Part shown: positions 18,326 to 31,501 of the stretch, piece after piece
Layout: each line of letters starts with the position of its first letter
Position numbering within the stretch: the first letter of the stretch is position 1
Source of the DNA: an uncultured Prevotella sp.
Lineage (GTDB): Bacteria; Bacteroidota; Bacteroidia; Bacteroidales; Bacteroidaceae
Direction: 5' to 3'
Length of the DNA stretch: 36,283 bases
NCBI GenBank assembly: GCA_947304695.1
Contig: CAMZBS010000011.1
Coordinates: 1-36,283, forward strand
Program-made: the position numbers and the translations under genes
The notes under the pieces: model-generated
The model's database searches: none
What the model was told of the DNA's origin: nothing
Seen by the model: the letters and a program-made list of their open reading frames with translations, nothing else

Positions 18326-18625
18326 CTATCTCACCACAAACTTCCTATGGGCCACCACGTAGACGCCCGCAGGAAGTTTTTTCTTAAAGTCAGCCCAAAC
18401 CACATTGCGGCCCAGCAAACGGCCTGTAACGGAAAACACCGTGACCCGCTTTTCTGTAAAGACTGCTTCAATCCCAGCGGATGGTTCCACAGGAATCACA
18501 ACCGACAAACTGTCATCCCAGCGTTCTTCCTCCATATACGCCGACAAAGTATCTGCCTTACCAGCCCGACAAGGAAGCCCACTGATCATGAAGGCCGCCA
18601 ATATCCATATTCTGAACATAGCCAT
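18326..18625 (-). CDS. Tiny secreted protein consisting largely of a T9SS type A sorting domain
   Basis: 99 residues. MAMFRIWILAAFMISGLPCRA is a signal peptide. After a short acidic linker (DTLSAYMEEERWDDSLSV) the last 50 or so residues read like a type A C-terminal sorting domain of the type IX secretion system: VTVFSVTGRLLG, then LPAGVYVVAHRKFVVR. Such domains normally sit at the end of large secreted cargo; here almost no cargo is left. It is the last gene of the fimbrillin/M64 operon, starting 13 bases after the preceding stop. The frame is open to 18697, but that would overlap the fimbrillin gene. Assignment to T9SS rests on the pattern alone. Confidence 0.6.
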   Translation of the reverse strand: MAMFRIWILAAFMISGLPCRAGKADTLSAYMEEERWDDSLSVVIPVEPSAGIEAVFTEKRVTVFSVTGRLLGRNVVWADFKKKLPAGVYVVAHRKFVVR

Positions 18626-18638
18626 ACGCACAGTCCGT

Positions 18639-19499
18639 TTACCAGCCACCAATCTCACCACCAATGTCAATCTTCGTCTGCTCCGGATTTTTGTCAAGCG
18701 TCACGCTGATGGTATGGCGCATGCCCGGCTTCAGTGAAATCTTGCCTTCCATCAAGTAGCTCACGCCATTGGTTATCACTTCCACCAGCGGGCGGCGCGT
18801 AGTGATATTCTGCGGCACCACGCAGGCCACATACTCCGCAGCCGAGTTCTGACGGCAGCGCACAGTGCCTGTACCTGCATAATCGTCCTTGGCGGCATCG
18901 CCCGTACTCAGGTCAATCACAGCCTTAGTCACCGTACCGAGGATATACACTTCCGTCGAAGCAGGAATGTCACCTGTATAGTTTTCGCCCTTTTCCAGTC
19001 GCACTACCACATTCGACAGTTTGTGGGCGAACTGCATGGCCACAGGCTGTGCCGAAGCCGCCACGTCTTTCTTTCCAGCCCAAAGAAAATCGCTCTGCGT
19101 ATAACCATCGTCCGTGTTCTGGTCGGCCTGCACCTCAAAAGAATAGTCCATAATGTCATTGACCGTCTTCGAATAAGGATAGTAAGCGTACACGTCGTGC
19201 TGTCCTTCATTCCAGTACACCCTTCGGCTCGACGTCCACGACGTGCCATTATACGTAAACAACTCGTTATTCACCTCATTTCCGCCAATCTGCAGTGCCA
19301 CGTCCTTTGCCGTCACATACACACCAATCTGATCCGTGTTCTCAAACTGCGTATCAGTGGCACGTGTCTGCGCCGGATGCACAAACTGTAGCTGGATCTC
19401 TCCTTTGTCGGCCACGAAGCCCTGCTGTTCACTTGTCTCTTCACTGCTGCAGGCCGCCATCATCAGTGCTCCCACAGCCAAAAGCCAAATCTTCTTCAT
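18639..19499 (-). CDS. Short fimbrillin-like surface lipoprotein
   Basis: 286 residues, one fimbrillin (Mfa_like_1) domain. Signal peptide with lipobox MMAAC (Cys17), then SSEETSE, an acidic stretch like the surface-export signal of Bacteroidetes lipoproteins. Arg46 in AQTRATD lies 29 residues after the cysteine, the expected protease site of type V pilins. Shared domain blocks are DQIGVYVTA, YAYYPYSKTV, QSDFLWAGKK, MQFAHKLSNVVVRL and ACVVPQNITT. It ends in GGEIGGW without a further domain and so resembles a structural pilin or anchor. It starts one base after the stop of the preceding giant gene (TAA-T-ATG), so it is co-translated with it. Confidence 0.82.
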   Translation of the reverse strand: MKKIWLLAVGALMMAACSSEETSEQQGFVADKGEIQLQFVHPAQTRATDTQFENTDQIGVYVTAKDVALQIGGNEVNNELFTYNGTSWTSSRRVYWNEGQHDVYAYYPYSKTVNDIMDYSFEVQADQNTDDGYTQSDFLWAGKKDVAASAQPVAMQFAHKLSNVVVRLEKGENYTGDIPASTEVYILGTVTKAVIDLSTGDAAKDDYAGTGTVRCRQNSAAEYVACVVPQNITTRRPLVEVITNGVSYLMEGKISLKPGMRHTISVTLDKNPEQTKIDIGGEIGGW

Positions 19500-19500
19500 A

Positions 19501-22500
19501 TTATCTTCTATTATTCATTCTTTCATTTTTCAGTTTTGCCCGGATGGCCCGCACTACATTGCCCATTTCACCTAAACGGATCAATGTAGGCATGTGATGA
19601 TTACCATTCGTATAGGGTTGCAGGTTTGATAAATCTGCAACATCCGAACGGGTAATACTCGTCAATCCCCATTCAAAGGTATCCTGCACACGGAATTCCT
19701 CCATTGTCCAGTTTTCACCAGCATACTCCTTGATACGCTTCCAGATGCTCAAGCGTGAAGGAGCATTATAATAAGGAATCCCGTAATTCATACACGAATT
19801 CACTTCAGGACGATAGATTCCACGAGTGAAGCCAAAGCCTCCTTCGTAGACATCCACATAATCACTGTATGTAGGATCAAAGATAAAGTCAGCCCAAGGC
19901 ACATCATGTAGTTTGCCCGTTGTAGTAAGATTATCATACCAGCCACGACCATGCATTTCTTCAATCTGTTGCTTCACAGAATTCGGAGCAAAAGCATTGC
20001 GCGTAATGGCCTCATCGCCTAACTTACCAAAGCCGTGACCACCAGCTTCGTGCTGTATCACACCACGGGTGTCACGCGGATATGGCTGTTCAGACGGTGG
20101 ACAAATAGCAATGGCCAAACCATCGTTGGTAAATACAGTATTGCCCTCATATTCTGTTGAGTTGGGCACAGCCACAATAAGTGTACGTCCAAGATTGTCC
20201 TGCACAACAGGTGTTTTCTCCAGCACATATTGTTGCACTTCATCCGTCTCTATAATAAGTTTTGAAGAAGTGCATTCGGTCTGTGCGACAGTAAGGAGCG
20301 ATGATATGCCCTGCAAAGTTCCAAAACGATTGTTCACATAAGTGTACATGGTATTTACGCCTTTTTCCTGCGACAATGGGAAGGTAACGTAGACATTGAA
20401 ATATTCACGCATAGATCGGTATGGTTCAACTGCGAAAAAACACTCTGCCTGATAACGTACAAGATCCAGATAGGAGTCATCGCTGATACTCTGTCCGTCC
20501 CATCCGTCACCAACGAAAACAATATCAATGCCACCACGCTGTCCTTTCGTGGCTGTTTGCAATGTCAGATAACTGTCTTCCGCATGTTCGTAGTCGTATT
20601 GTCGCACCACACAAGATGTAGTATAGCCGTCCATTTCAAACTTCACCGTATCCATACGGTTACCTTGTCCTTGCGGCAACTGCTGAACGGTCAGCATCAA
20701 GGCGGTCTTACCTGTACCACTAGTCTTTGAGAGTATTACCCAATCTGGTTTCTCTGCCACCGTCCATGCACCATCGGCATTGAGTATGATTTCTTCTGTG
20801 TGAATCGTATTAAGGGCACCTACTTGTGCTGGACGGCATACGAAGTTTTTATATTCAGATATCCGTTTGAAGTCACTCCAGCCACGCGCCTGCCGGTATC
20901 TCTCCACACAACCCTTCGGCACTTCAACAGTAAAGTTGTCCTTCGGCACGCCAAGGAAGGCATTGTCAACCACAAATGGAGGTTCCTCGCTTTGGCAAAT
21001 GATTGAACTAATATTTGAACATCCAGCGAAACAGTAGGCATCAAGAAGTTGTGTTCTTTTAGGAATGACGATTTCTGCAATACCCGTGCAATTCATGAAA
21101 CATCCTTGAGGTATTCGCACTACATTTTTCGGTAAAGTGAGCGTACCCATTAGACGACATCCTGTGAACGCACCTTCAAAATAATAATTTCCTTTTTCTA
21201 TTTCTTTTAAAGCGTCAGGGAAAATAATCCTTGTAATCTTTGATCCAGCGAAAGCACAAGACCCTATTTTGGTAACAGTCGATGGAAGCTTGATCTCACC
21301 ACGTATCTCTGAACCTCCAATACAATTCGCTGGAATTTCTGACATTCCTTCGGGAAATATGATAGAAGTACATTGGGTACCAGCAAATGCGCCACCACAT
21401 ATCTTACAACCTTGTGGGATATTGATAGTACCAGTGAGTCCAGAAGGTAGTGGACTGTTTATCTCTTTCAACGTAGGAGGCAGATACATGGTACCCGTAA
21501 TTTTTCCACCATTTCCAAACCCAATAGGTTCCCATTTCTCCAATCCTTCAGGAATTACCAACTCACCTTTGAAAGGGTCTATGTCTAATCCTAAGACTTT
21601 CAATGTAGAAGGCAAAGTCAGTGTTCCTGTAAAGTTGCATCCCCAAAATCCACCTACCTCAACGACACCTTCTGGTATAATAAGTGAACCTGTGAGGTGA
21701 CGTACTTCGTTAAAACAGTCTATGTATTTCAGACCTTTTTCAGGAAAGAATACTTTTTCCAGCATTGGCATCCATTCGATGCCATACAGTGCCCCGTCTT
21801 CTGGTATTGCTTTTATCAGATTCAAATGCGTCAATTTCTTCATGGTGCTAATAGTCTGATAGTCATCACCATTTACAGGACCTACAATCTTAAGTGCTAA
21901 CAGTTCGGCAGCATTCAGGCCCATGGTTTCCAATGTTGTTGCTAAGGTGCCTGCCTCGCTGACTTCTACCACGACATACTGACGCACCAACCCTTCGTGC
22001 ATATCAGCATCGTCAACCCAATCCGTAACGACCTCATCCAGTAACGCGAATTGAAAATCTCCCGAAGGTGTATTACGGTTTACCTGAATCGTAAAACGAT
22101 GCATTTTCCCAGACATTAAAGTCATGGGCTCATTTTTCGTAAGCGAATAGCTTTGGCCATCAATGGTAAGAGATACTATTACTTTGTTTGCCGCAATTGT
22201 TTGAGGAAACGCCACGGCCCGCCACTGTCCTTGATACGGCAAAGGAATAATATTGCCCACGGTTCCTTCACCTACAGTTAAGGCACCAGAAGTCAAATCA
22301 ACGATACCACTGAGCACTGTGTTTTTCAGAATCACAGTCTTTTCAAAGCCATTCCACTCATCGTCAGTAAAGCCAGTTCCTTTCTCCAGCGTAATGCAAA
22401 CGCCTGCCATCAGGTGATGATACAGTAAATTGACTGTTTCCGTTGTCGGACTCACATTTTCCTGCTTTGCCCAAAGCAAATCGCTGGCAACATAGCCATT

Positions 22501-22935
22501 AACCGTTTTTGACGGAACAACGGTATCCTGCCGATTGGCTATGAAGAACGGATAAGCAGTTACCGAAGGCAAATTCCCATCGAAAGGGTAATATCCATAA
22601 AAGTCTGCAGCAGTTCCTTTCACGTCCCAAAAGAGCTGAGTTGGCGAAGTCCATGTGCCGTCATCCTGTAAGGTGAAACGCATGTTTGAAGCACGGTTTC
22701 CTTGGAGCTTTACTTCTGTTGGCTGACCGTTTTCGTCGCGATCAACTACAAAAACACCCATTTCGTCACCCGTGCTGAATTCCCCATCTATAACAGACCG
22801 GGTTGTAGTGCCTGGATATGTAGTCCCAACATTGATGGGTATTTGACTTTTCAGGCCAAACGACTGCAAGTCATCATGCTCAGTGCAAGCCCATATTCCA
22901 AGAAGCGCACCTATTATATATATAGCTTTCTTCAT
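19501..22935 (-). CDS. Fimbrillin-like, leucine-rich repeat, BACON and M64 peptidase surface lipoprotein (third giant, intact)
   Basis: 1144 residues. Lipoprotein signal to Cys17; Arg46 in TTTRSV 29 residues later; fimbrillin-like domain about 30-310 (GDEMGVFVVD, GYYPFDGNLP, ASDLLWAKQE, LYHHLMAGV). About 345-690: BspA-type LRR_5 repeats (LPSTLKVLGL, IIFPEGMSEIPANC, LPSTVTKIGSCAFAG). About 710-780: BACON-like domain (GAWTVAEKPDWVILSKTSGT). From 790: M64 peptidase domain (IDIVFVGDGW, FFAVEPYRSMREYFNVY) with the metal motif HEAGGHGFGKLGDE at 972-985. A C-terminal tail of about 55 residues is absent from its paralogs. Its ATG overlaps the stop of the split C-terminal piece of the previous gene (ATGA, 22932-22935). 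The fimbrillin part is less GC-rich than in the other two giants. Confidence 0.82.
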   Translation of the reverse strand: MKKAIYIIGALLGIWACTEHDDLQSFGLKSQIPINVGTTYPGTTTRSVIDGEFSTGDEMGVFVVDRDENGQPTEVKLQGNRASNMRFTLQDDGTWTSPTQLFWDVKGTAADFYGYYPFDGNLPSVTAYPFFIANRQDTVVPSKTVNGYVASDLLWAKQENVSPTTETVNLLYHHLMAGVCITLEKGTGFTDDEWNGFEKTVILKNTVLSGIVDLTSGALTVGEGTVGNIIPLPYQGQWRAVAFPQTIAANKVIVSLTIDGQSYSLTKNEPMTLMSGKMHRFTIQVNRNTPSGDFQFALLDEVVTDWVDDADMHEGLVRQYVVVEVSEAGTLATTLETMGLNAAELLALKIVGPVNGDDYQTISTMKKLTHLNLIKAIPEDGALYGIEWMPMLEKVFFPEKGLKYIDCFNEVRHLTGSLIIPEGVVEVGGFWGCNFTGTLTLPSTLKVLGLDIDPFKGELVIPEGLEKWEPIGFGNGGKITGTMYLPPTLKEINSPLPSGLTGTINIPQGCKICGGAFAGTQCTSIIFPEGMSEIPANCIGGSEIRGEIKLPSTVTKIGSCAFAGSKITRIIFPDALKEIEKGNYYFEGAFTGCRLMGTLTLPKNVVRIPQGCFMNCTGIAEIVIPKRTQLLDAYCFAGCSNISSIICQSEEPPFVVDNAFLGVPKDNFTVEVPKGCVERYRQARGWSDFKRISEYKNFVCRPAQVGALNTIHTEEIILNADGAWTVAEKPDWVILSKTSGTGKTALMLTVQQLPQGQGNRMDTVKFEMDGYTTSCVVRQYDYEHAEDSYLTLQTATKGQRGGIDIVFVGDGWDGQSISDDSYLDLVRYQAECFFAVEPYRSMREYFNVYVTFPLSQEKGVNTMYTYVNNRFGTLQGISSLLTVAQTECTSSKLIIETDEVQQYVLEKTPVVQDNLGRTLIVAVPNSTEYEGNTVFTNDGLAIAICPPSEQPYPRDTRGVIQHEAGGHGFGKLGDEAITRNAFAPNSVKQQIEEMHGRGWYDNLTTTGKLHDVPWADFIFDPTYSDYVDVYEGGFGFTRGIYRPEVNSCMNYGIPYYNAPSRLSIWKRIKEYAGENWTMEEFRVQDTFEWGLTSITRSDVADLSNLQPYTNGNHHMPTLIRLGEMGNVVRAIRAKLKNERMNNRR

Positions 22936-23192
22936 CTCTTACCTCCTTTCTTCTTCAGATAGTCCACAGGAGAACCAGCTTTGATAACAGGTCCATGACC
23001 TTCACTGTGCATGGCTTTGACCTGCTGCCACGGAGTGTCATTCATGGAACGGGTAAGGAACTTACTTCCATACGCCCTACTGTCATGCTGCACAAAATCG
23101 GAGAAATCAAACGTCTCGCCTGCTGCATCCTTGATACGTTCCACAATAAGCTGGCGGGACCATGTGCTGAAGTATGGCACGTTGTTATTCAC
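22932..23192 (-). CDS. Separated C-terminal piece of the M64 protein (frameshift product)
   Basis: 86 residues from a GTG at 23192 that overlaps the TGA of the large upstream frame (GTGA). The sequence VPYFSTWSRQLIVERIKDAA and GETFDFSDF aligns with the ends of both other giants (IPYYNAPSRLSIWKRIKEYAGENWTMEEF in two blocks; IPYFNAISRMSIVKRIMQYAGETFTFEKF likewise). It is therefore the missing end of the protein encoded at 23189-26464, displaced by a 4-bp deletion. It may still be translated by reinitiation at the GTG, and its own stop overlaps the next ATG. Confidence 0.75.
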   Translation of the reverse strand: MNNNVPYFSTWSRQLIVERIKDAAGETFDFSDFVQHDSRAYGSKFLTRSMNDTPWQQVKAMHSEGHGPVIKAGSPVDYLKKKGGKR

Positions 23193-26100
23193 GAATTCAG
23201 TTCTGAGCGGTAAATGCCTTGTGAATGCATGTGGCTGCCTTCATAAATATCCACAATGTCGCTGTATTTCGGATGAGGGATCAGATGTTTCCATTCCACG
23301 CTTCCATACTTTCCATTGAGCGACACATTGCGTCCCCATCCCATGGCATGCATGGTCTCCACGGCACTCACATGGCCACAGCAAGGACACTGACAGGTGT
23401 GGATATTGTCACGATGGTAAACATATTCGTCATCAAGCTTAGCCCATCCGTGACCACCAGCCTCATGTTGTATCAGTCCACGCGCATCATTGGGATAGTC
23501 GAATTTACTCATCGGACAAACGGCAATTGCCGAACCGTCGGCATACATAGCCGTCAGTCCTTCATAAGCATCAGAATTCGGTACGCAAATAATCAATGAA
23601 CGGCTGATATTACTTGCCGTGACAGGACTCTGCACAATATCGGTCAACACATAATCGGCAATGTCTTCAAAAGGCACGCTCAACCGGCCATTGTCGCCTG
23701 CGCCCCAAGTGATATTAAATTTTGTGTTGCGCCATTTGTCAGGTGAATCCTGCATGCCACTTTCATAACTCATGGCCATTGCTATGCTGACATTGAAATA
23801 CTGCTGATATGTTTTATAAGGTTCCACACCGAAGAAGTATTCCATTTCTTCTTCCATATCGGTGCGGTAAGTACCGCGTGCAATGTCTTCAGCATCGTAT
23901 CCATCACCTACAAAAAGTATGTCAATACCACCATTAATACCCTGTGTTGCAGTTTGCAATGTCAGAACCTCGTCTTCTTCTATTTCATAGTCAAACTGTT
24001 TCACCGTGTAAGTACACGTGATGGGATTTCCGTCCTCATCATTACGTGCCAAACGGAACACAACGCTGCCTTCGCGGTCGCCCTGATGATGGGACATGTT
24101 GTCAATGGTTATCTTCAACTCTGTTTTCTTTGTGCCCGAAGTCTTGTCTACATGAATCCAATTAGGACATGACTGCACCGTCCACTGTGTGTCGGCATTC
24201 AGTACCACTTCACGCACATTGCCTTTGTTCAAGAGCTTTGCCTGCATGGGGCGGCACACAAACTTGCTGTCTGACGAGATGCGCCTGAACTCGCTCCAGT
24301 AAGGCGCTGCCTTATATGCTTCCACTGCTGACGTAGGAACAACAACCGTAAAATTATTCTTTTCCACGCCACTAAATGTACTCTCCTCTATGGCTGGCGG
24401 CTCCACAGCCTGGCATTCGATATAGTCCAATGATGAACAATCCGCAAATGCGTCTCCCTGCATACCTTGTAAGCCAGCAGGCAGAATGACGGCGGTGAGT
24501 TGTCTGCAGAATCTAAAAGCACTTCCACGAATCTGGGTTACCGTTGATGGTATGACAAGCGTGTCCTGTAGGTTTTCACAATCATAGAAAGCAGCCTCCT
24601 CAATTATTTCAATGCCTTCTGGCATGTTCACATGGGTAACTCCTGATAGGCTGAACGCATCTCTTTCGATTCTCTTAAGAGTAGATGGCAAATGGATGTT
24701 TCGGAGGTGTTGAGTGGCATGAAAAGCATAGGAACCAATCTCTTCAACGCCTTCAGGCACATAAACATCTCCAATTGCACCACGCGGAATGCCATTGATT
24801 TTCTTCACTCCCTGAGGAATTACGATTGGTCCTCCAATCTGGGCAGGCCAGGCATTATTGAGTTCTGCGAGTCCTTCAGGAATATGTATTGAGCCCGTCA
24901 TATAGCTACAGCCAATGAATGCACCGCTGCCAAGATACTTCATGGAAGCAGGCAGCACAAGTTCGTTTGTGAAAAAACACATATTCAGATCGCCGTCATT
25001 ACCCCCAAAGGCATTATCGCCAATGTATTCCACCGTTGAGGGGATATAAAGCTCACCCGTCATCATACTTCCCTTATGGCCGTAGCAGACAAAAGCGTCT
25101 CTTCCAATATATTTGACTCCTTCTGGAAGTATCAAGGAACCACACAGGCTTGTACCCGGAAACGCCATTACTCCGATTCCCTTCAGATGGTCGGGAAACA
25201 CAAAATAGCGCAGTGATAACATATTTTCAAAAGCCCCATAGGGTATGTAGTCATCAGCAGCTTCAGGCATACCATATTCACGTCCGGGATCCTCCCATGG
25301 ACCACTTAGCCTCATGTTCTTTGTGCGCAATTCTTTCAGATTCAATGCCTCTAAGGAGGTCATCCTCTGTCGAATATAATCGAAACTGCCATCAGCTATA
25401 CAGCCTGTCAGTTTTAGATTAACAATCTTACTTGGGTCAAGCCCCATACTATCCAACACGTATTCCAAGGAGTGTTCCTCATCTACATGTATCGTAGTGT
25501 ATTCTCGCACTTCACCATTATGACTCATGGCGTCGTTTTCCCAAGGGGTGATGGACTCACTGATCAGCGAGAAATGATAGTCGCCTTCGGGCAGGCGCTT
25601 ATCGACCTTGATGGTGAACTTGTGCAGTTTGCTTTTATAATAGGTCATGGCGGCAGCACGCTGGAAGTTGTAGCTAATGCCGCCCACGGTGATGGCCAGC
25701 AGCGTTTTGTCAGCAGCCACCGTTTGCGGGGCCACCACGGCACGCCACTGGGTACCGCGCTGCTGGGGTGTGATGCTGCCCGTGGCCGAACGGCGGCTGA
25801 TGCCCACCGTACCTGTTTGTATATTAATATAGGTGTCGAGCGCGGTGTTTTCCACCAGCACGCTCTTTTCCAGTGTGTCCCATTCGCCCTCATCAAAGTA
25901 ATCACCTTCAACGAGCGTTACCTGCACACCGGCCATTACATGGTGGTGCTTCAGGTTGATGGGGGTGCCGGGCGCAACGTCTTCAGCCTTGGCCCAGAGG
26001 AAGTCGCTGGCCTCATAGCCGGAGAGGTGGCGTCCCGTGGTGAGCTGGTCGCGCTGATTGCGCTGGATGCTGAACGGATAGTCTTCGACGCTCCGCAGGT

Positions 26101-26464
26101 TGGCATCGAAAGGATAATAGCCGTAGGCATCCACGTGGGTCTGTTTGTCTTTCCAGTAGAGCTGATAGGAACCTGTCCACGTACCGTTGTCGGCATCGTA
26201 GGTGAAGCGCACGTTGTCGGCATGATTGCCCACGACCTGTAGTGGCTGTGGCTGCTGGCCGTCGTAGTTCACAATGTAAACACCTATCTCGTCACCAGTG
26301 GCAAAGCCTCCGTCGCTGGCACGGGTCACGTACTGCTGTTCCACTTGCGCCAACACCTGCAATGGCTCGCCCGTGGAAACAGATTCCATCCACCCGTTGT
26401 CGTCGGCACAGGCCGACAACAACAGGGCAGACAGAATGGCGATATACTTGTCAGTTCTCATCAA
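23189..26464 (-). CDS. Fimbrillin-like, leucine-rich repeat, BACON and M64 peptidase surface lipoprotein (second giant, C-terminus split off)
   Basis: 1091 residues. Lipobox LLLSAC (Cys19), then ADDN; Arg48 in YVTRAS 29 residues on. Fimbrillin-like domain about 30-310 (GDEIGVYIVN, GYYPFDANLR, ASDFLWAKAE, LKHHHVMAGV, AVVAPQTVAADK). LRR_5 repeats about 350-735 (LILPEGVKYIGRDAF, IHLPSTLKRIERDAF). BACON-like about 745-825 (TQWTVQSCPNWIHVDKTSGT). M64 peptidase from about 830 (IDILFVGDGYDAED, FFGVEPYKTYQQYFNVS), motif HEAGGHGWAKLDDEY at 1000-1014, and a cysteine cluster CQCPCC at 1024-1029. The protein stops after IYRSELNS, where paralogs continue for about 50 residues or more; those residues are in the overlapping frame at 22932-23192. 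The catalytic motif is intact. Confidence 0.82.
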   Translation of the reverse strand: MMRTDKYIAILSALLLSACADDNGWMESVSTGEPLQVLAQVEQQYVTRASDGGFATGDEIGVYIVNYDGQQPQPLQVVGNHADNVRFTYDADNGTWTGSYQLYWKDKQTHVDAYGYYPFDANLRSVEDYPFSIQRNQRDQLTTGRHLSGYEASDFLWAKAEDVAPGTPINLKHHHVMAGVQVTLVEGDYFDEGEWDTLEKSVLVENTALDTYINIQTGTVGISRRSATGSITPQQRGTQWRAVVAPQTVAADKTLLAITVGGISYNFQRAAAMTYYKSKLHKFTIKVDKRLPEGDYHFSLISESITPWENDAMSHNGEVREYTTIHVDEEHSLEYVLDSMGLDPSKIVNLKLTGCIADGSFDYIRQRMTSLEALNLKELRTKNMRLSGPWEDPGREYGMPEAADDYIPYGAFENMLSLRYFVFPDHLKGIGVMAFPGTSLCGSLILPEGVKYIGRDAFVCYGHKGSMMTGELYIPSTVEYIGDNAFGGNDGDLNMCFFTNELVLPASMKYLGSGAFIGCSYMTGSIHIPEGLAELNNAWPAQIGGPIVIPQGVKKINGIPRGAIGDVYVPEGVEEIGSYAFHATQHLRNIHLPSTLKRIERDAFSLSGVTHVNMPEGIEIIEEAAFYDCENLQDTLVIPSTVTQIRGSAFRFCRQLTAVILPAGLQGMQGDAFADCSSLDYIECQAVEPPAIEESTFSGVEKNNFTVVVPTSAVEAYKAAPYWSEFRRISSDSKFVCRPMQAKLLNKGNVREVVLNADTQWTVQSCPNWIHVDKTSGTKKTELKITIDNMSHHQGDREGSVVFRLARNDEDGNPITCTYTVKQFDYEIEEDEVLTLQTATQGINGGIDILFVGDGYDAEDIARGTYRTDMEEEMEYFFGVEPYKTYQQYFNVSIAMAMSYESGMQDSPDKWRNTKFNITWGAGDNGRLSVPFEDIADYVLTDIVQSPVTASNISRSLIICVPNSDAYEGLTAMYADGSAIAVCPMSKFDYPNDARGLIQHEAGGHGWAKLDDEYVYHRDNIHTCQCPCCGHVSAVETMHAMGWGRNVSLNGKYGSVEWKHLIPHPKYSDIVDIYEGSHMHSQGIYRSELNS

Positions 26465-26487
26465 ACTCCTAATTCTTAACTTCTAAC

Positions 26488-27366
26488 TCAATTTACCGTT
26501 CCACCAAAGTCCTCGTCGACCACTTCCCAGTCACCAATGCCGATGTTGATGCCGCCTGAGGTCTTCTTCATGGTCACGGTAATGGTGTACTGCTTGCCGC
26601 TCTCGAAGGTCATGGCGCGTGTCAGCGTATAGTTGGCATTGTTCCAGGTCACGGTGACGATGCCCGTAGAGGCCACCTGCTGGGGTACCACTACGGCACT
26701 GTACTGCAGATTCTGCTCCTTCAGCGGAGTGATGCTGGCAGCATTGCCCGATGCGGTGACGGCACCTGTAGCCAGATTGATGGTGGCCTGGGTGCGGATG
26801 CTATTCAGGCGCACGCTAAGCGTACCGTTGTTCAGTTCATCGGCCGTAAAGCCTTCACCGGGAGCCACCTTGATGATGGCACGTGCAAAGAGGTGGTTCA
26901 GCGTCAGGCTGAGCACATTGTCGGTAGGTCCCTGTTCGGCCAGCTTGCCCCAAAGGAAGTCACTCTGCTTCTGAACGGCAGCCGTACTCTGATCGGTCTG
27001 TGCCTGGAAGTTATAGGCCAAGGCGTTGGTCACACCGCTGTTGTAAGGAGCATAACCGTAGAAGTCGGCCACGGTGGCATTGTCTTTCCAGAACACGGGA
27101 TACTGTGATTCCCAAGCACCTGCGCCATTCGACTGTAGGAGCATGTTGTTGATGTAGTTGCCCGATTCCTGCATGGCTCCATATACCATGAAGACTCCCA
27201 CTTGTTCTACTGTTACAGGCGATTCGTCACCAGAACGTGTTTGCAGGCGCACCATTTTGGCCTCACCCGACACGTTTTCCTCGTTCGTCACTTCGTCGTC
27301 GCTGCTGCTGCAAGCAGTCATCATGATACAGGCCATGCCTGCCATCAGAAAAGAAATCTTTTTCAT
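26488..27366 (-). CDS. Short fimbrillin-like surface lipoprotein
   Basis: 292 residues, a single fimbrillin-like domain. Lipobox MMTAC (Cys19) followed by SSSDDEVTNEE, a clear acidic surface-export signal. Arg44 in LQTRSGD lies 25 residues after the cysteine. Shared blocks: VEQVGVFMVYG, GYAPYNSG, QSDFLWGKLA, LTLNHLFARAIIKV and SAVVVPQQVA. It lies between two giant genes, 28 bases after the first and 23 before the second. The frame continues upstream to 27465 inside the previous gene, but only ATG 27366 gives a signal peptide. A structural pilin or anchor role is inferred from size and fold. Confidence 0.82.
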   Translation of the reverse strand: MKKISFLMAGMACIMMTACSSSDDEVTNEENVSGEAKMVRLQTRSGDESPVTVEQVGVFMVYGAMQESGNYINNMLLQSNGAGAWESQYPVFWKDNATVADFYGYAPYNSGVTNALAYNFQAQTDQSTAAVQKQSDFLWGKLAEQGPTDNVLSLTLNHLFARAIIKVAPGEGFTADELNNGTLSVRLNSIRTQATINLATGAVTASGNAASITPLKEQNLQYSAVVVPQQVASTGIVTVTWNNANYTLTRAMTFESGKQYTITVTMKKTSGGINIGIGDWEVVDEDFGGTVN

Positions 27367-27394
27367 AAGCATATCATAATTTAAAATTAATAAT

Positions 27395-30300
27395 TTAGAA
27401 TTCATTCGGATATTCTCGTTTATCTTTCTCTGCAAACTTCTCAAAGGTAAAGGTCTCGCCAGCATATTGCATGATACGCTTCACGATGCTCATACGGCTG
27501 ATGGCATTGAAATAGGGGATGAAAGTGGTGCCCATAATGCTCATATTCTCCGAACGGAAAACACCACGGGCGTGGTTATATCCACCCTCAAAAATGTCAA
27601 CATACTGGGCATAACGGCTGTCAAAGATGAAATCCTTCCAAAGAACTTCGTTCATTCTGCCCGTCAGGCTGATGTTTTCATACCATCCCTGTGACTTGGC
27701 ATGCTGGAAGCGGCTCATGGCATTGCAGTTGGGACAGGTACACGACTTGAGGAAGGTGAAGTGACTGATGCCTTCTTCGCCTAAATGGCCGAAGGCCACA
27801 CCACCTACTTCACGCAGCACGAACTCACGCTGTGAGTAGGGGTAGCTGTCAGTACTCTTTCCCAAATAGGAAATGGTACGTCCATTATCGCTAAGCACAG
27901 AAGTGTTGTTGCCTAAATAGCTGGTGTTTAGAAGCACAACGACGGTAGTCTCGCCACTTCTTTCTTCGGTGATGCCTGCACCATGAGCCTTAGCGTAGGC
28001 CCACACCAGGTCGTCGCGAGTCACCTGCCAGTCATCGCTGGCAAAACGGGTTCGCCCATTAATGCCATGCTCAGGCGAGACGGCAATGGCTGTAGATATT
28101 GTGAAATAGTTTCTGTAGGTCTTGTAAGGTTCGCATGAGAAGAGGTAGTCAATCTGCTGTCGCATGTCGTCCATGTACTGGCCGCTGACCACATCCTCGG
28201 CACTGTAGCCCTCGCCCACTATAAATAAAGGTATCGCGCGCGAGGCTCCAACAGAAGCCGTCTGCAGGACTATTTCCTGATCCTCCTTAATATCGGTACT
28301 GCAAATCTGCCGCACATCAGTATAAGTGGTGTAATCCTTGCCGTTGAGTTTGAACACGATGCGCCCACTACGTTCGCCCTCACTGGTCATGGGCTTCACA
28401 GTGATGGTCAGTTCGGTCTTCCGTTCCTCATCGGTACCACTCGACGGCGACACCGTGACCCAGTCGGGACATTCGCTTACCTGCCAAGCACCTTCGGAAC
28501 GAATCACGCCCGTAGCCGTCTGTCCTTTGTCAAGTGCAAGAATTTCTGGAATATTAAAAGCTAGTTCGTGATAAGCTGTGATATTCTTGAACTGATTCCA
28601 ACCAGCAGTGTGGCGATAGGTTTCTACTGATGCCTCTGGCACCTGCAATATGCATTTGTCGAAATAGACACCTTGGAAAATGGCACCACCCAGTTCTGGT
28701 GGCTCTGGATTCAGGCATACAACTGTTTGTAACGCATCGCAACCATCAAAGGCTTCCTCGCCAATATAACTGACATATTTCGGAAGTGTAATAGATGTAA
28801 GAAAACCATTATTGGCGAAGCATCCCCTATTGATGTTCTCCAAACGCGACGGTAATTGAATGCTCGTGAAACAGTTTCCCTGAAAACAGTTTTCTGCAAT
28901 ATATAGGCACTGCTCTGGAATAATAAGATTGCCTTCGAAGCCATTTCCACTGAAACATTCCCGTTCAATAGAACGTAGCGTACTGGGCAGGTAGAGAGGG
29001 AAGGGAGCACTGCCGTATTTGAAATTACCATATCCAATCTCCTCTAAGCCTTCGTTCAGTTGTAGTTTTGAAAGCTTTAGCTGAGTAAAGGATAAATCAC
29101 CAATGCGTTTCATGCTTGAAGGCAGAATCAGTTCAAAGTAGTTAGAAAGATTTGGTGCCCAACTACCCTGCCAATTAGCATCTGGGGTCTCAATGATTCC
29201 TTGTGGAAGTTCTATGGTTCCTACAAAATTGCCTGTGCGTCCAAGTCCGCTGAACATACCAGGAACCAGTTCTTTAATTTTCGAAGGAAGGTGGAACACA
29301 CCATAGAAATTGGGATCACATGCGTCTTCATAATTATTACCAAAGGCGCCACCACCTATATATGAAATGTTATCAGAAAGTTTTAGCTCGCATTTGTATC
29401 TGCATGCATAGAAAGCCCCTTCACAGATGGAGTCAAGCGTATTGGGCAGAATCATTTCCACTCCATTATAATCATTATAACTTAAAGCATATTCATCAAT
29501 GCGAGTTACACCTTCTGGAATCTCAAGGGTAGAATACATCAGTCGCATGCTAGAGAGCCCCGTTATCCTTTTGAGTGTAGTTGGTAGTATGAGCGAACGG
29601 ATAGTTTGATTGCCACTAAGTTTGCCCATGATGTTGTCTTCAAAAACATCATAGTCGTGTGATCCATGTGAGAGCCATCCATCCTCTGTGCAGATATGCT
29701 TTACCGTTACCTCTTTCAGATTGAGATGGTGTAGTTCCGGCATCTGATCACGAAGCAAATCAAAGTCTGATTCTGATATTTCTCCTGTCACCTTCAAGTT
29801 CTGAATAGTTTTATAATCATAGCCTGCATTAGTAAGACACTGCATTAAGGTACCATATTCCGAACAATGCACCGTAACGTATGCCATAGCTGAGAACTGG
29901 TGGCTGGTCTCATCGTTCACCCAGGGCGAGATGCCGTCGTCGGTGACGGTGATCTGATAGTCACCAGACAGTTCGCTTTTGTTTACGGTCAAGGTGAAGT
30001 TGTGGAGCTTGCCACCCTGATACTGCATGGGGGCAGTGAGCTGATGGCTGTAGGTCTGGCCGTCGAGGGTGATGCTGATGAGCTGCTTGCCTGCGGCCAC
30101 AGTCTGGGGAATGACGACGGCACGGTAGTCATCGCCCGTTTGCTGGGCCATGCAGACAGGCATCTGAGTGTCGGAGGCACTGCCGCAGTCCACCGAACCT
30201 GAGGACAGGTCGACGGTGGCTGAAGTCACGGTGTTGTCGACAAGAACTATCTTGTCGAGTTTCTGCCACTCAATGTCGCTCACACCTGTACCTTTAATCA

Positions 30301-30868
30301 AATGTACGCGCACGCCCGCGAGGATATGGTTGTAACGGACGACGATTTGGTCTTCGGTGTATTCGGCACGAGCCACCTTGCCCCACAACAGATCGCTCTG
30401 CTCATAGCCCGACAGGGTGCCGTTCTGGGCGGGCGTGCTCTGGTCGGTCTGAATGCTAAACTGCCAGGCAGTGGGGTCATTGATATAGTTCTGAGCAGGA
30501 TAGTAGCCGTAGATGCTGACGGGTGTCTGGCGGTCGCGCCAATAAATGGTGGTGGGCGATGACCAGGAGTAGGCATCGCCGTCGTAGGTGTAGACCACGT
30601 TGCTGGCACGGTTATCGGTGGCAGTAAGGGGGCCTGCAGTGCCGTCGGCGTTGTAGTCGACGACGTAGATGCCCATGCGGTCGCCTGTCACGAAGCCGTA
30701 GTCGTTGGCACGGGTGACATTCTCCTGCTGAAGTTGAAATGTTAAATTAAGTGAAAAATGGGGGGGGTAAATTGCCTCAGTCAGCTCATCGCTGCACGAA
30801 AAGAGCGCAACGAGAAGCAACGAAGCGGCCACAGCCGTATGGAGGCGAAGCTTTCTGAGTGTTTGCAT
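27395..30868 (-). CDS. Fimbrillin-like, leucine-rich repeat, BACON and M64-like surface lipoprotein (first giant, metal site lost)
   Basis: 1157 residues from ATG 30868; the frame opens at a TTG inside the promoter (30898), which is rejected. Lipobox LFSC (Cys25), then SDELTE; Arg53 in NVTRAN 28 residues later. Fimbrillin-like domain about 37-310 (GDRMGIYVVD, GYYPAQNY, QSDLLWGKVA, RYNHILAGVRVHL, AVVIPQTVAAGK). LRR_5 repeats about 375-760 (LPSTLRSIERECFSG, IPEQCLYIAENCFQG). BACON about 790-850 (GAWQVSECPDWVTVSPSSGT). M64-like domain about 865-1150 (PLFIVGEGYSAED, LFSCEPYKTYRNYFTIS). The metal motif found in the paralogs is replaced by REVGGVAFGHLGEE (about 1019-1032), so it is predicted to be catalytically dead. 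A C8 tract follows the signal peptide. Confidence 0.8.
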   Translation of the reverse strand: MQTLRKLRLHTAVAASLLLVALFSCSDELTEAIYPPHFSLNLTFQLQQENVTRANDYGFVTGDRMGIYVVDYNADGTAGPLTATDNRASNVVYTYDGDAYSWSSPTTIYWRDRQTPVSIYGYYPAQNYINDPTAWQFSIQTDQSTPAQNGTLSGYEQSDLLWGKVARAEYTEDQIVVRYNHILAGVRVHLIKGTGVSDIEWQKLDKIVLVDNTVTSATVDLSSGSVDCGSASDTQMPVCMAQQTGDDYRAVVIPQTVAAGKQLISITLDGQTYSHQLTAPMQYQGGKLHNFTLTVNKSELSGDYQITVTDDGISPWVNDETSHQFSAMAYVTVHCSEYGTLMQCLTNAGYDYKTIQNLKVTGEISESDFDLLRDQMPELHHLNLKEVTVKHICTEDGWLSHGSHDYDVFEDNIMGKLSGNQTIRSLILPTTLKRITGLSSMRLMYSTLEIPEGVTRIDEYALSYNDYNGVEMILPNTLDSICEGAFYACRYKCELKLSDNISYIGGGAFGNNYEDACDPNFYGVFHLPSKIKELVPGMFSGLGRTGNFVGTIELPQGIIETPDANWQGSWAPNLSNYFELILPSSMKRIGDLSFTQLKLSKLQLNEGLEEIGYGNFKYGSAPFPLYLPSTLRSIERECFSGNGFEGNLIIPEQCLYIAENCFQGNCFTSIQLPSRLENINRGCFANNGFLTSITLPKYVSYIGEEAFDGCDALQTVVCLNPEPPELGGAIFQGVYFDKCILQVPEASVETYRHTAGWNQFKNITAYHELAFNIPEILALDKGQTATGVIRSEGAWQVSECPDWVTVSPSSGTDEERKTELTITVKPMTSEGERSGRIVFKLNGKDYTTYTDVRQICSTDIKEDQEIVLQTASVGASRAIPLFIVGEGYSAEDVVSGQYMDDMRQQIDYLFSCEPYKTYRNYFTISTAIAVSPEHGINGRTRFASDDWQVTRDDLVWAYAKAHGAGITEERSGETTVVVLLNTSYLGNNTSVLSDNGRTISYLGKSTDSYPYSQREFVLREVGGVAFGHLGEEGISHFTFLKSCTCPNCNAMSRFQHAKSQGWYENISLTGRMNEVLWKDFIFDSRYAQYVDIFEGGYNHARGVFRSENMSIMGTTFIPYFNAISRMSIVKRIMQYAGETFTFEKFAEKDKREYPNEF
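30760..30767 (-). repeat. C8 homopolymer in the first operon gene
   Basis: Eight consecutive C on the coding strand encode Pro35-Pro36, just after the lipoprotein signal peptide. A gain or loss of one base would stop translation of the first giant near its N-terminus. Possible contingency tract. Confidence 0.6.
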
Positions 30869-30895
30869 GTGGGCTGTTAATAGTAATTTCAGCTG

Positions 30896-30926
30896 CAAAT
30901 GTAGTCATTAATTCCCACATAACAAA
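30896..30926 (-). promoter_or_regulatory. Promoter of the fimbrillin/M64 operon
   Basis: TTTG (30923-30926), a 19-bp spacer and TACATTTG (30896-30903), consensus geometry. It is the only clear promoter I found for the seven reading frames down to 18326, whose gaps are all under 30 bases. The leader is about 25 nt. Confidence 0.75.
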
Positions 30927-31501
30927 ATTTATCGACATTTTTTTTTTATGGCCATTGCCCAAAGAGATAAAAGCGGAACAGTCCATCTACACTTTTTACG
31001 AGCCATCCTGCAACATGGATTTGTAAAAATAATTCATAGAAAAAAGCGCTCTCACAACAGGTGCTTCCAGACAAAAGGAGTCACCGAAAGCGGTGCTTTC
31101 AGAGTCAGCCGCCTGCTGTTTAGGAGTCATAAAGCCTCTGACGCACCGGAAATAAGGCTTAGACGCACCGGAAATAAGGCTTAGACGCATCGGAAATAAG
31201 GCTTAGACGCATCGGAAATAAGGCTTAGACGCATAGAAAATAAGCCACTTTTGAGGTCAAAAGCGGTTGTTTCAGAGGGGCAGAAAAGCCTCCAAAAACA
31301 CAAACGCCTGATTGTCAACTACTTACAAAATAGCCCATAATTCGCTCATTTGCAAGCGACTGACCGTTTGTGAATTCCGAGCGAATCTCAGAAGGGTGTT
31401 TGTAAAGATTTTTCATAATAGTGAACACGCTACAGAGGGGAACAAGAAGTCTTAACAAACTACAAAATGCAAGAAGATACGGTAAATTTTCGATGGATTC
31501 C
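30927..31501. other. Long non-coding stretch between the divergent operon and gdhA
   Basis: About 570 bases with no credible gene. It holds a run of ten T near 30938-30947, a small CACCG/CGGTG hairpin (31083-31096) and the 22-bp tandem repeat at 31140-31246. Short open frames here (for example minus strand 30996-31190) overlap the repeat and have no promoter or ribosome site. Confidence 0.6.
31140..31246. repeat. 22-bp tandem repeat, four full copies and a degenerate fifth
   Basis: Copies begin at 31140, 31162, 31184, 31206 and 31228. Each starts GACGCA(C/T)CGG and ends AAATAAGGCTTA. Copies 1-2 have ACCGG, copies 3-4 ATCGG, and the fifth drifts (ATAGAAAATAAGCC). The period is not a multiple of three and there are no unique spacers, so it is neither coding nor CRISPR. 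Confidence 0.88.

Follow-up and report, generated by a model that had tools for sequence, protein, structure and literature searches.

We analysed a window of DNA, the whole stretch of 36,283 nucleotides at positions 1-36,283 of contig CAMZBS010000011.1 (assembly GCA_947304695.1, uncultured Prevotella sp.), whose minus strand carries an operon of fimbrillin lipoprotein genes. Three of these genes encode very large proteins, here called giants 1 to 3, in which a fimbrillin part is followed by leucine-rich repeats (LRR), a BACON part and an M64-like peptidase; two encode small fimbrillins, F-alpha and F-beta. An original prediction, made from the window's letters, had placed one consensus promoter and seven reading frames here. 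The promoter stands: it is of the Bacteroidetes type, a pattern that matches five times in the window against 0.41 matches expected, and scans for sigma-70 promoters and terminators were at chance level. The seven frames proved to be six genes, the seventh being the C-terminal end of giant 2, which is frame-broken near its C-terminus (23189-23192) in this contig; the break may be real or a sequencing error. The features are the following.

30896..30926, minus strand: Bacteroidetes-type promoter, TTTG-N19-TACATTTG, a pattern match
27395..30868, minus strand: giant 1 (T1), lipoprotein with fimbrillin, LRR_5, BACON and M64-like pseudopeptidase parts, by sequence and Pfam; its frame opens at 30898 and the likely start is the ATG at 30868
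27770..27814, minus strand: degenerate zinc site of giant 1, REVGGVAFGHLGEEG, by alignment
26488..27366, minus strand: F-alpha, small shaft-like fimbrillin, probably starting at ATG 27366 and with its lipobox Cys at 27312
26491..26532, minus strand: Trp of F-alpha and the 12-residue tail that ends the protein, DWEVVDEDFGGTVN, a candidate donor strand
23189..26461, minus strand: giant 2 (T2), first piece, with fimbrillin, LRR_5, BACON-like and M64-like parts; its zinc site is intact (HEAGGH...DEY at 23467-23423)
22932..23192, minus strand: rest of the C-terminal stretch of giant 2, in another frame
19501..22935, minus strand: giant 3 (T3), intact, 1144 aa, with fimbrillin, LRR_5, BACON-like and M64-like parts
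20008..20052, minus strand: zinc site of giant 3, HEAGGHGFGKLGDEA, with the hexapeptide HExxGH, residues 962-976
22789..22803, minus strand: Thr-Arg of giant 3 (R46) in the loop that follows strand 1, a candidate site of maturation cleavage
18639..19499, minus strand: F-beta, small fimbrillin that terminates at the conserved Trp
about 18326..18625, minus strand: small secreted protein, with an end like the C-terminal domain (CTD) of type IX secretion system (T9SS) cargo, recognised by eye only

The Pfam domain search and the predicted folds agree with the original prediction that the three giants combine fimbrillin, BspA-type LRR, BACON and M64-like peptidase parts. Per-domain structure matches fit all four domains; the N-terminal part is predicted to adopt the two-domain fimbrillin fold, the LRR_5 repeats are of BspA type, and the peptidase part has both the family profile and the fold of M64. 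Whole-chain Foldseek TM-scores by query length are low for giant 3 because of its size, and per-domain rows were used instead. By sequence, the two small lipoproteins beside the giants are likewise fimbrillins, as had been proposed. Overall, the earlier observation is confirmed in part. It had missed three points: one giant of each complete trio is dead as a peptidase, the zinc motif is not that of M64, and giant 2 is broken.

Relatives were sought in one genome per species with alignment-based patterns and subsequent confirmation, which gave 287 confirmed places among 416 pattern matches (a scan with a single protein as query gave 6 pattern matches and 0 confirmed relatives). The best 80 of the 287 confirmed places, corresponding to 75 distinct loci, were analysed together with the window. 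In these 76 loci our own profiles recovered 127 four-part proteins: 69 in 23 complete trios, 12 in 6 pairs and 46 alone. Twenty-eight loci are of the trio type (23 complete, the window being counted among them despite its broken giant 2) and 48 of the single-giant type. Contig ends cut the trios of L016, L019 and L034 to pairs, that of L023 to a single giant, and also that of L029; L041, L058 and L072 each hold two copies of the single-type giant. Record titles name Prevotella, Bacteroides, Phocaeicola, Paraprevotella, Barnesiella, Butyricimonas, Alistipes, Muribaculaceae and others, and many trio loci come from the ruminant gut. Two cultured commensals, Butyricimonas synergistica DSM 23225 and Xylanibacter rarus, are among the carriers of single-type loci (L027 and L058). 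One locus, L020, is titled Staphylococcus sp. yet bears a Bacteroidales-type trio; this metagenome-assembled genome is probably mislabelled. The few source names shown read 'fimbrillin family protein' or 'hypothetical protein', so that the peptidase part is left unnamed there. Protein searches listed the best 120 relatives per giant, without genomic context. For giant 3, 1836 relatives were found at E <= 0.001 among 7996 scored candidates, and, giant 3 itself set aside, each of the 119 listed combines M64, Mfa_like_1 and LRR_5 in 1070-1192 aa.

The gene order is conserved in the relatives and the genes are not scattered. Trio loci read giant 1, giant 2, giant 3 and F-beta, often with F-alpha, which either follows F-beta or separates giants 1 and 2 (window, L003, L009). 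F-beta follows giant 3 in 23/23 complete trios (only its start before the contig end in L006), and F-alpha is present in 13 of the 23. Single-type loci read F-alpha, giant, F-beta. Among single-giant loci that span at least 6 kb and include 1.5 kb ahead of the giant, F-alpha precedes and F-beta follows it in 35/36; the remaining one, L064, is cut by its contig end. This conserved gene set of gut and rumen Bacteroidales, with two giants that keep the catalytic site, one that has lost it and small pilus-type proteins beside them, points to an assembled surface machine more than to enzymes acting apart.

The zinc site of each giant was scored on its H, E, H and Asp/Glu residues. Exactly one copy without a zinc site was found in 23/23 complete trios, the order being dead-alive-alive in 22 and alive-alive-dead in one (L018, uncultured Bacteroides). 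Both cut trios with a readable giant 1 end (L016 and L034) also have a dead giant 1. Among the listed protein-database relatives, which include the window's own giant 2 piece and one protein identical to its giant 1, the second His is kept in 119/119 for giant 3 and 120/120 for giant 2, against 0/120 for giant 1. As a fact of sequence for trios of this kind, we regard the rule of one dead copy as very probable, and no more than that because it is based on 23 loci.

The dead domain does not look like a relic. Ten of the 16 listed conserved C-terminal positions of M64 are kept in 23/23 giant 1 copies, among them Met1049, which is probably the Met-turn residue; the remaining six vary. Moreover, between L001 and L024 the M64 part shows a synonymous and nonsynonymous divergence (dS/dN) of 1.24/0.10 for giant 1, versus 1.16/0.07 and 1.27/0.10 in the active copies; this is one informative pair, the least saturated of the eight closest printed, apart from L006-L008. 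Simple decay of giant 1 is thus not supported by the conserved positions or by dS/dN in this one genome pair, and the dead domain looks to be under constraint and to keep key residues of the fold. The letters of the lost zinc site themselves vary among lineages.

A tree of the 127 giants, made by a quick method without bootstrap and with the zinc-motif columns left out, places the first-position giants on one side of a branch marked 100*. The second- and third-position giants fall into starred clades (26 and 27 rows) that otherwise consist of copies from cut trios, and the single-type giants form a clade of 51 rows. By this tree the three giants are old position-specific clades, and the origin of the trio by recent local tandem duplication is rejected. 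Nor is an exchange of domains between the first and third giants of L018 supported, since each domain of both has its best match within the clade of its own position. The BACON part of its giant 3 finds its best row in L023, a third-position copy by the tree; for the last M64 piece of its giant 1 the group means are close (0.537 for its own clade versus 0.522 for the single type). These matches point to a separate loss in L018 rather than a swap. If regain is excluded, the death of giant 1 would have arisen more than once, because L018 lies inside the clade after the dead L021; we hold this loosely, the base of the giant 1 clade being weakly supported (81). In L006-L008, dS/dN is 0.07/0.01 for giant 1 versus 1.39/0.10 and 1.71/0.09 for giants 2 and 3, a near-identity beside diverged neighbours that points to a recent exchange of the giant 1 gene.

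The intact sites have a zinc motif of their own. The M64 motif is HEXXHXXXGXXD (PMC12402451; likewise in passages of PMC12237041). This pentapeptide form occurs in 0/366 aligned giants and in 0/120 listed giant 2 relatives. Instead, the hexapeptide HExxGH was found in 223/366 aligned giants, the other 143 being dead copies; it is present in 222/223 giants outside the first-position clade and in giant 1 of L018. In the alignment the giants carry one extra residue in the motif relative to the solved M64 enzymes 3p1v and 4df9, and the motif Gly is mostly replaced by Lys. The two active copies also differ next to the acidic ligand pair, which is followed by Tyr in 120/120 giant 2 relatives and 0/119 giant 3 relatives among those listed; this Tyr is also present in 3p1v and 4df9. 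According to PMC5805324, HEXXGH is the unique motif of M49 peptidases. The structure matches of the giant peptidase domain are to M64, and no Pfam M49 family matched the window proteins at E up to 0.1.

It should be noted that one pattern used to fetch the loci contains QHE[AV]GGH, which biases the hexapeptide counts on loci. Because the fetch pattern held part of the motif, PF09471 matches of 12 genomes were surveyed (47 matches; 30 loci were fetched and read). Stand-alone M64 proteins of 411-516 aa with the canonical motif occur in 11/12 genomes. The hexapeptide was found in 13/14 giant loci read from the 12 genomes, the 14th (L087, Barnesiella) being a dead first giant. It is also present in 3/3 BACON-M64 lipoprotein-like proteins read, of 546-570 aa, a fourth match measuring 578 aa. 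The three (L088:823-2463, L104:1195-2898 and L089:1171-2883) have no Pfam match to a fimbrillin or LRR family. Since these lipoproteins share the hexapeptide, its branch is broader than the trio and single modules.

By sequence, the fimbrillin parts fit the plan of type V pili. In passages of PMC5789003, Mfa1 fimbria precursors are described as lipoproteins cleaved at Arg; the Mfa1 shaft protein has a conserved Trp and then a tail needed for polymerisation, and the tip protein Mfa3 continues for about 105 more residues past this Trp. In the giants the lipobox Cys column, predicted to be lipidated, is kept in 124/127, the other three rows being gapped; 53/56 F-alpha and 72/73 F-beta proteins have the lipobox pattern with the same prediction. 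An Arg is found in the loop of 124/124 giants with a residue there, which makes it a candidate cleavage site by sequence; R46 of giant 3 lies in a low-confidence stretch (43-51) of the model, between strands 35-39 and 58-66. Trp306 is present in 127/127 giants and is followed by the LRR, BACON and peptidase parts. After the last Trp, F-alpha has 12-14 residues in 55/56 proteins, a putative donor tail, and F-beta 0-6 residues in 73/73. The tail pattern was written with such tails already in view; profiles of the protein bodies without their tails, themselves built from the two tail classes, gave the same class in 127/129. Outside the fimbrillins the same tail was found in 4/727 genes of at least 90 aa, all adjoining giants in trios that lack F-alpha; the carriers scanned with Pfam have Big_2 repeats (L018), BACON (L017) or no match (L005), and the fourth carrier is in L011. 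A variant was seen by eye in L021, and the printed genes of four further F-alpha-less trios (L015, L020, L022, L056) show no such tail. An acidic export signal for surface lipoproteins, described in passages of PMC5080379 and taken here as at least two D/E among positions +3 to +6 with the Cys as +1, is present in 98/124 giants versus 1/124 in a control stretch.

The original prediction had noted the absence of usher and chaperone genes. Type V assembly is not known to use either, and their absence is therefore no oddity. Its view of giants as tips and small proteins as stalk or anchor stands in so far as predicted structures and sequences give tip-like giants and a shaft-like small protein; the filament itself is putative, and the earlier interpretation is partly supported.

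We propose that the five fimbrillin proteins would be exported as lipoproteins, the giants reaching the cell surface, as their Cys and acidic signal suggest, and would probably mature by cleavage after the invariant loop Arg. They would probably join as type V pilins do, through strand exchange, with F-alpha, bearing Trp and a 12-residue tail, as a shaft or donor part, F-beta, ending near Trp, as an adaptor or cap, and the giants as tip-like heads. The head of a trio may be a heteromer of three paralogues, two with intact HExxGH sites and one a pseudopeptidase retained to bind, pair or regulate. A protein or glycoprotein target would be held by the LRR and BACON parts and cut by the two active peptidases, which read DEY and DE-not-Y next to the third zinc ligand. 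That the whole chain holds, giving a conserved Bacteroidales surface peptidase built of fimbrillin parts with an obligate pseudopeptidase, has in our view an even chance. Its fullest form is tentative and could well prove wrong: a pilus-type peptidase whose heteromeric heads need exactly one dead member, whichever paralogue that is, with a portable Trp+12 tail that docks fimbrillins and, in some species, Ig-like or BACON proteins, and with an M49-style HExxGH in an M64 fold.

Several observations weigh against this pilus-type peptidase. The filament, the complex and the activity are predicted from sequences and models, and the giant 3 model has a predicted TM-score (pTM) of 0.41, at which its domain arrangement is not reliable. 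F-alpha is missing from 9/22 complete trios uncut at that end; the tail is on another protein in five of these nine and no such tail was seen in four. Only 11/22 first-position giants and 10/53 F-alpha proteins have the acidic export signal. Pfam named no Mfa2/FimB-type anchor, and F-beta scores 18.3 bits against a cut-off of 130 for the NCBIfam Mfa1 major subunit model NF038041, for which no match is listed for F-alpha or the giants. Lipoproteins with Mfa_like_1 are widespread in Bacteroidales, and most of them are not known to polymerise. Given that giant 2 is broken in the window, this strain may not produce the full set.

In another arrangement, which we consider unlikely, each giant would be a surface lipoprotein in its own right, its fimbrillin being a membrane-near spacer without any polymer, and the three heads would act separately on different targets. 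The lipobox Cys in 124/127 and the acidic signal in 98/124 agree with this, as do loci with just one head. However, one dead copy in all 23 trios, including the swapped L018, and the constant company of F-beta would not be expected of independent enzymes, and the invariant loop Arg and Trp fit the type V plan. An improbable alternative makes the dead copy a decoy or pure adhesin that binds a substrate or host factor through LRR, BACON and the dead site, the active copies working alone; the apparent constraint on the dead domain suits it, and so does the variation of zinc-site letters by lineage, as expected if loss alone matters, but an intact giant 1 beside a dead giant 3 in L018, a single case, is left unexplained. 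That all giants lack enzymatic activity, M64 catalysis being abolished by the additional residue of HExxGH and the family serving as a binding scaffold, is very improbable: the canonical HEXXHXXXGXXD (PMC12402451) is absent from all 366 aligned giants and Lys replaces Gly in most, but 119/119 giant 3 and 120/120 giant 2 listed relatives retain H, E, H and the acidic ligand while giant 1 has lost them, which argues that the site is under selection, and passages of PMC5805324 give HEXXGH as the zinc motif of active M49 enzymes.

Among the best-ranked matches in the open-access literature, no published system of such architecture is named. In the type V pili of Porphyromonas gingivalis (FimA and Mfa1 clusters), Mfa1 is the shaft, Mfa2 the anchor and Mfa3-5 the tip. 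Here, by contrast, the heads are LRR-BACON-peptidases and each trio has three paralogues, one of them dead; no Mfa2-type anchor is named, the tail is also found on non-fimbrillin proteins, and the filament is putative. Compared with the M64 enzymes BF3526 of Bacteroides fragilis, BACOVA_00663 and the Thomasclavelia IgA protease, the giants have HExxGH, mostly with Lys, are fused to fimbrillin and LRR, and come with a dead paralogue. The BACON-M64 lipoproteins of the same genomes resemble the giants in BACON, M64 and hexapeptide and differ in lacking fimbrillin and LRR in Pfam. Dipeptidyl peptidase III of M49 shares HEXXGH (PMC5805324) and belongs to another family. The tested Bacteroides enzyme BF3526 leaves intact IgA uncut and cuts proline-rich peptides (PMC12402451), so an 'IgA protease' label should not be assumed for the giants.

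Mitochondrial processing peptidase is likewise built of paralogous active and inactive subunits, although its family and cellular place are unrelated. Adhesion is the main known role of type V pili. If the proposed pilus-type peptidase is real, it would be a conserved, widespread type V relative with peptidase heads, in which pili serve as enzyme platforms on gut and rumen bacteria. The dead copy of each trio, at another position in L018, would offer a direct way to study why pseudoenzymes are retained, and the presence of HExxGH in an M64 fold would bring a motif called unique to M49, in passages of PMC5805324, into another family.

Beyond the module, flanking genes are by eye mostly not common to the loci shown. 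Many single-type loci have f1 (38 loci), f3 (33) or a further LRR protein (37) after F-beta, and they often include, on either strand, a Ser/Thr kinase gene (29) and one for a protein of some 190 aa that has no match in Pfam (24) (e.g., L025, L027, L036, L052, L054, L061). Trios are adjoined by family f6 (17 genes in 15 loci), secreted proteins that vary widely in length, reaching 1966 aa, and contain Big_2, MBG or dockerin parts; about half of them begin with an SDIEITDSTS-like stretch and several have a T9SS-CTD-like end (e.g., L001:15268-21168, L008:15251-16960, L020:14375-16603); they are possibly Mfa5-like T9SS cargo. The T9SS sorting domain TIGR04183 matched 2/10 neighbours tested, with scores of 18.6 and 19.9 bits that stay below the cut-off of 23. 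The small secreted protein of the window, which had no TIGR04183 match and did not cluster with f6, occupies the position often taken by f6 in other trios. The flanks of the window operon are ordinary, with a purL-type gene, chromate transporters and GH43 on one side and a glutamate dehydrogenase-type gene on the other. Between the latter and the operon promoter lies a 22-bp tandem repeat of 4.8 copies with 96% matches (31140-31244).

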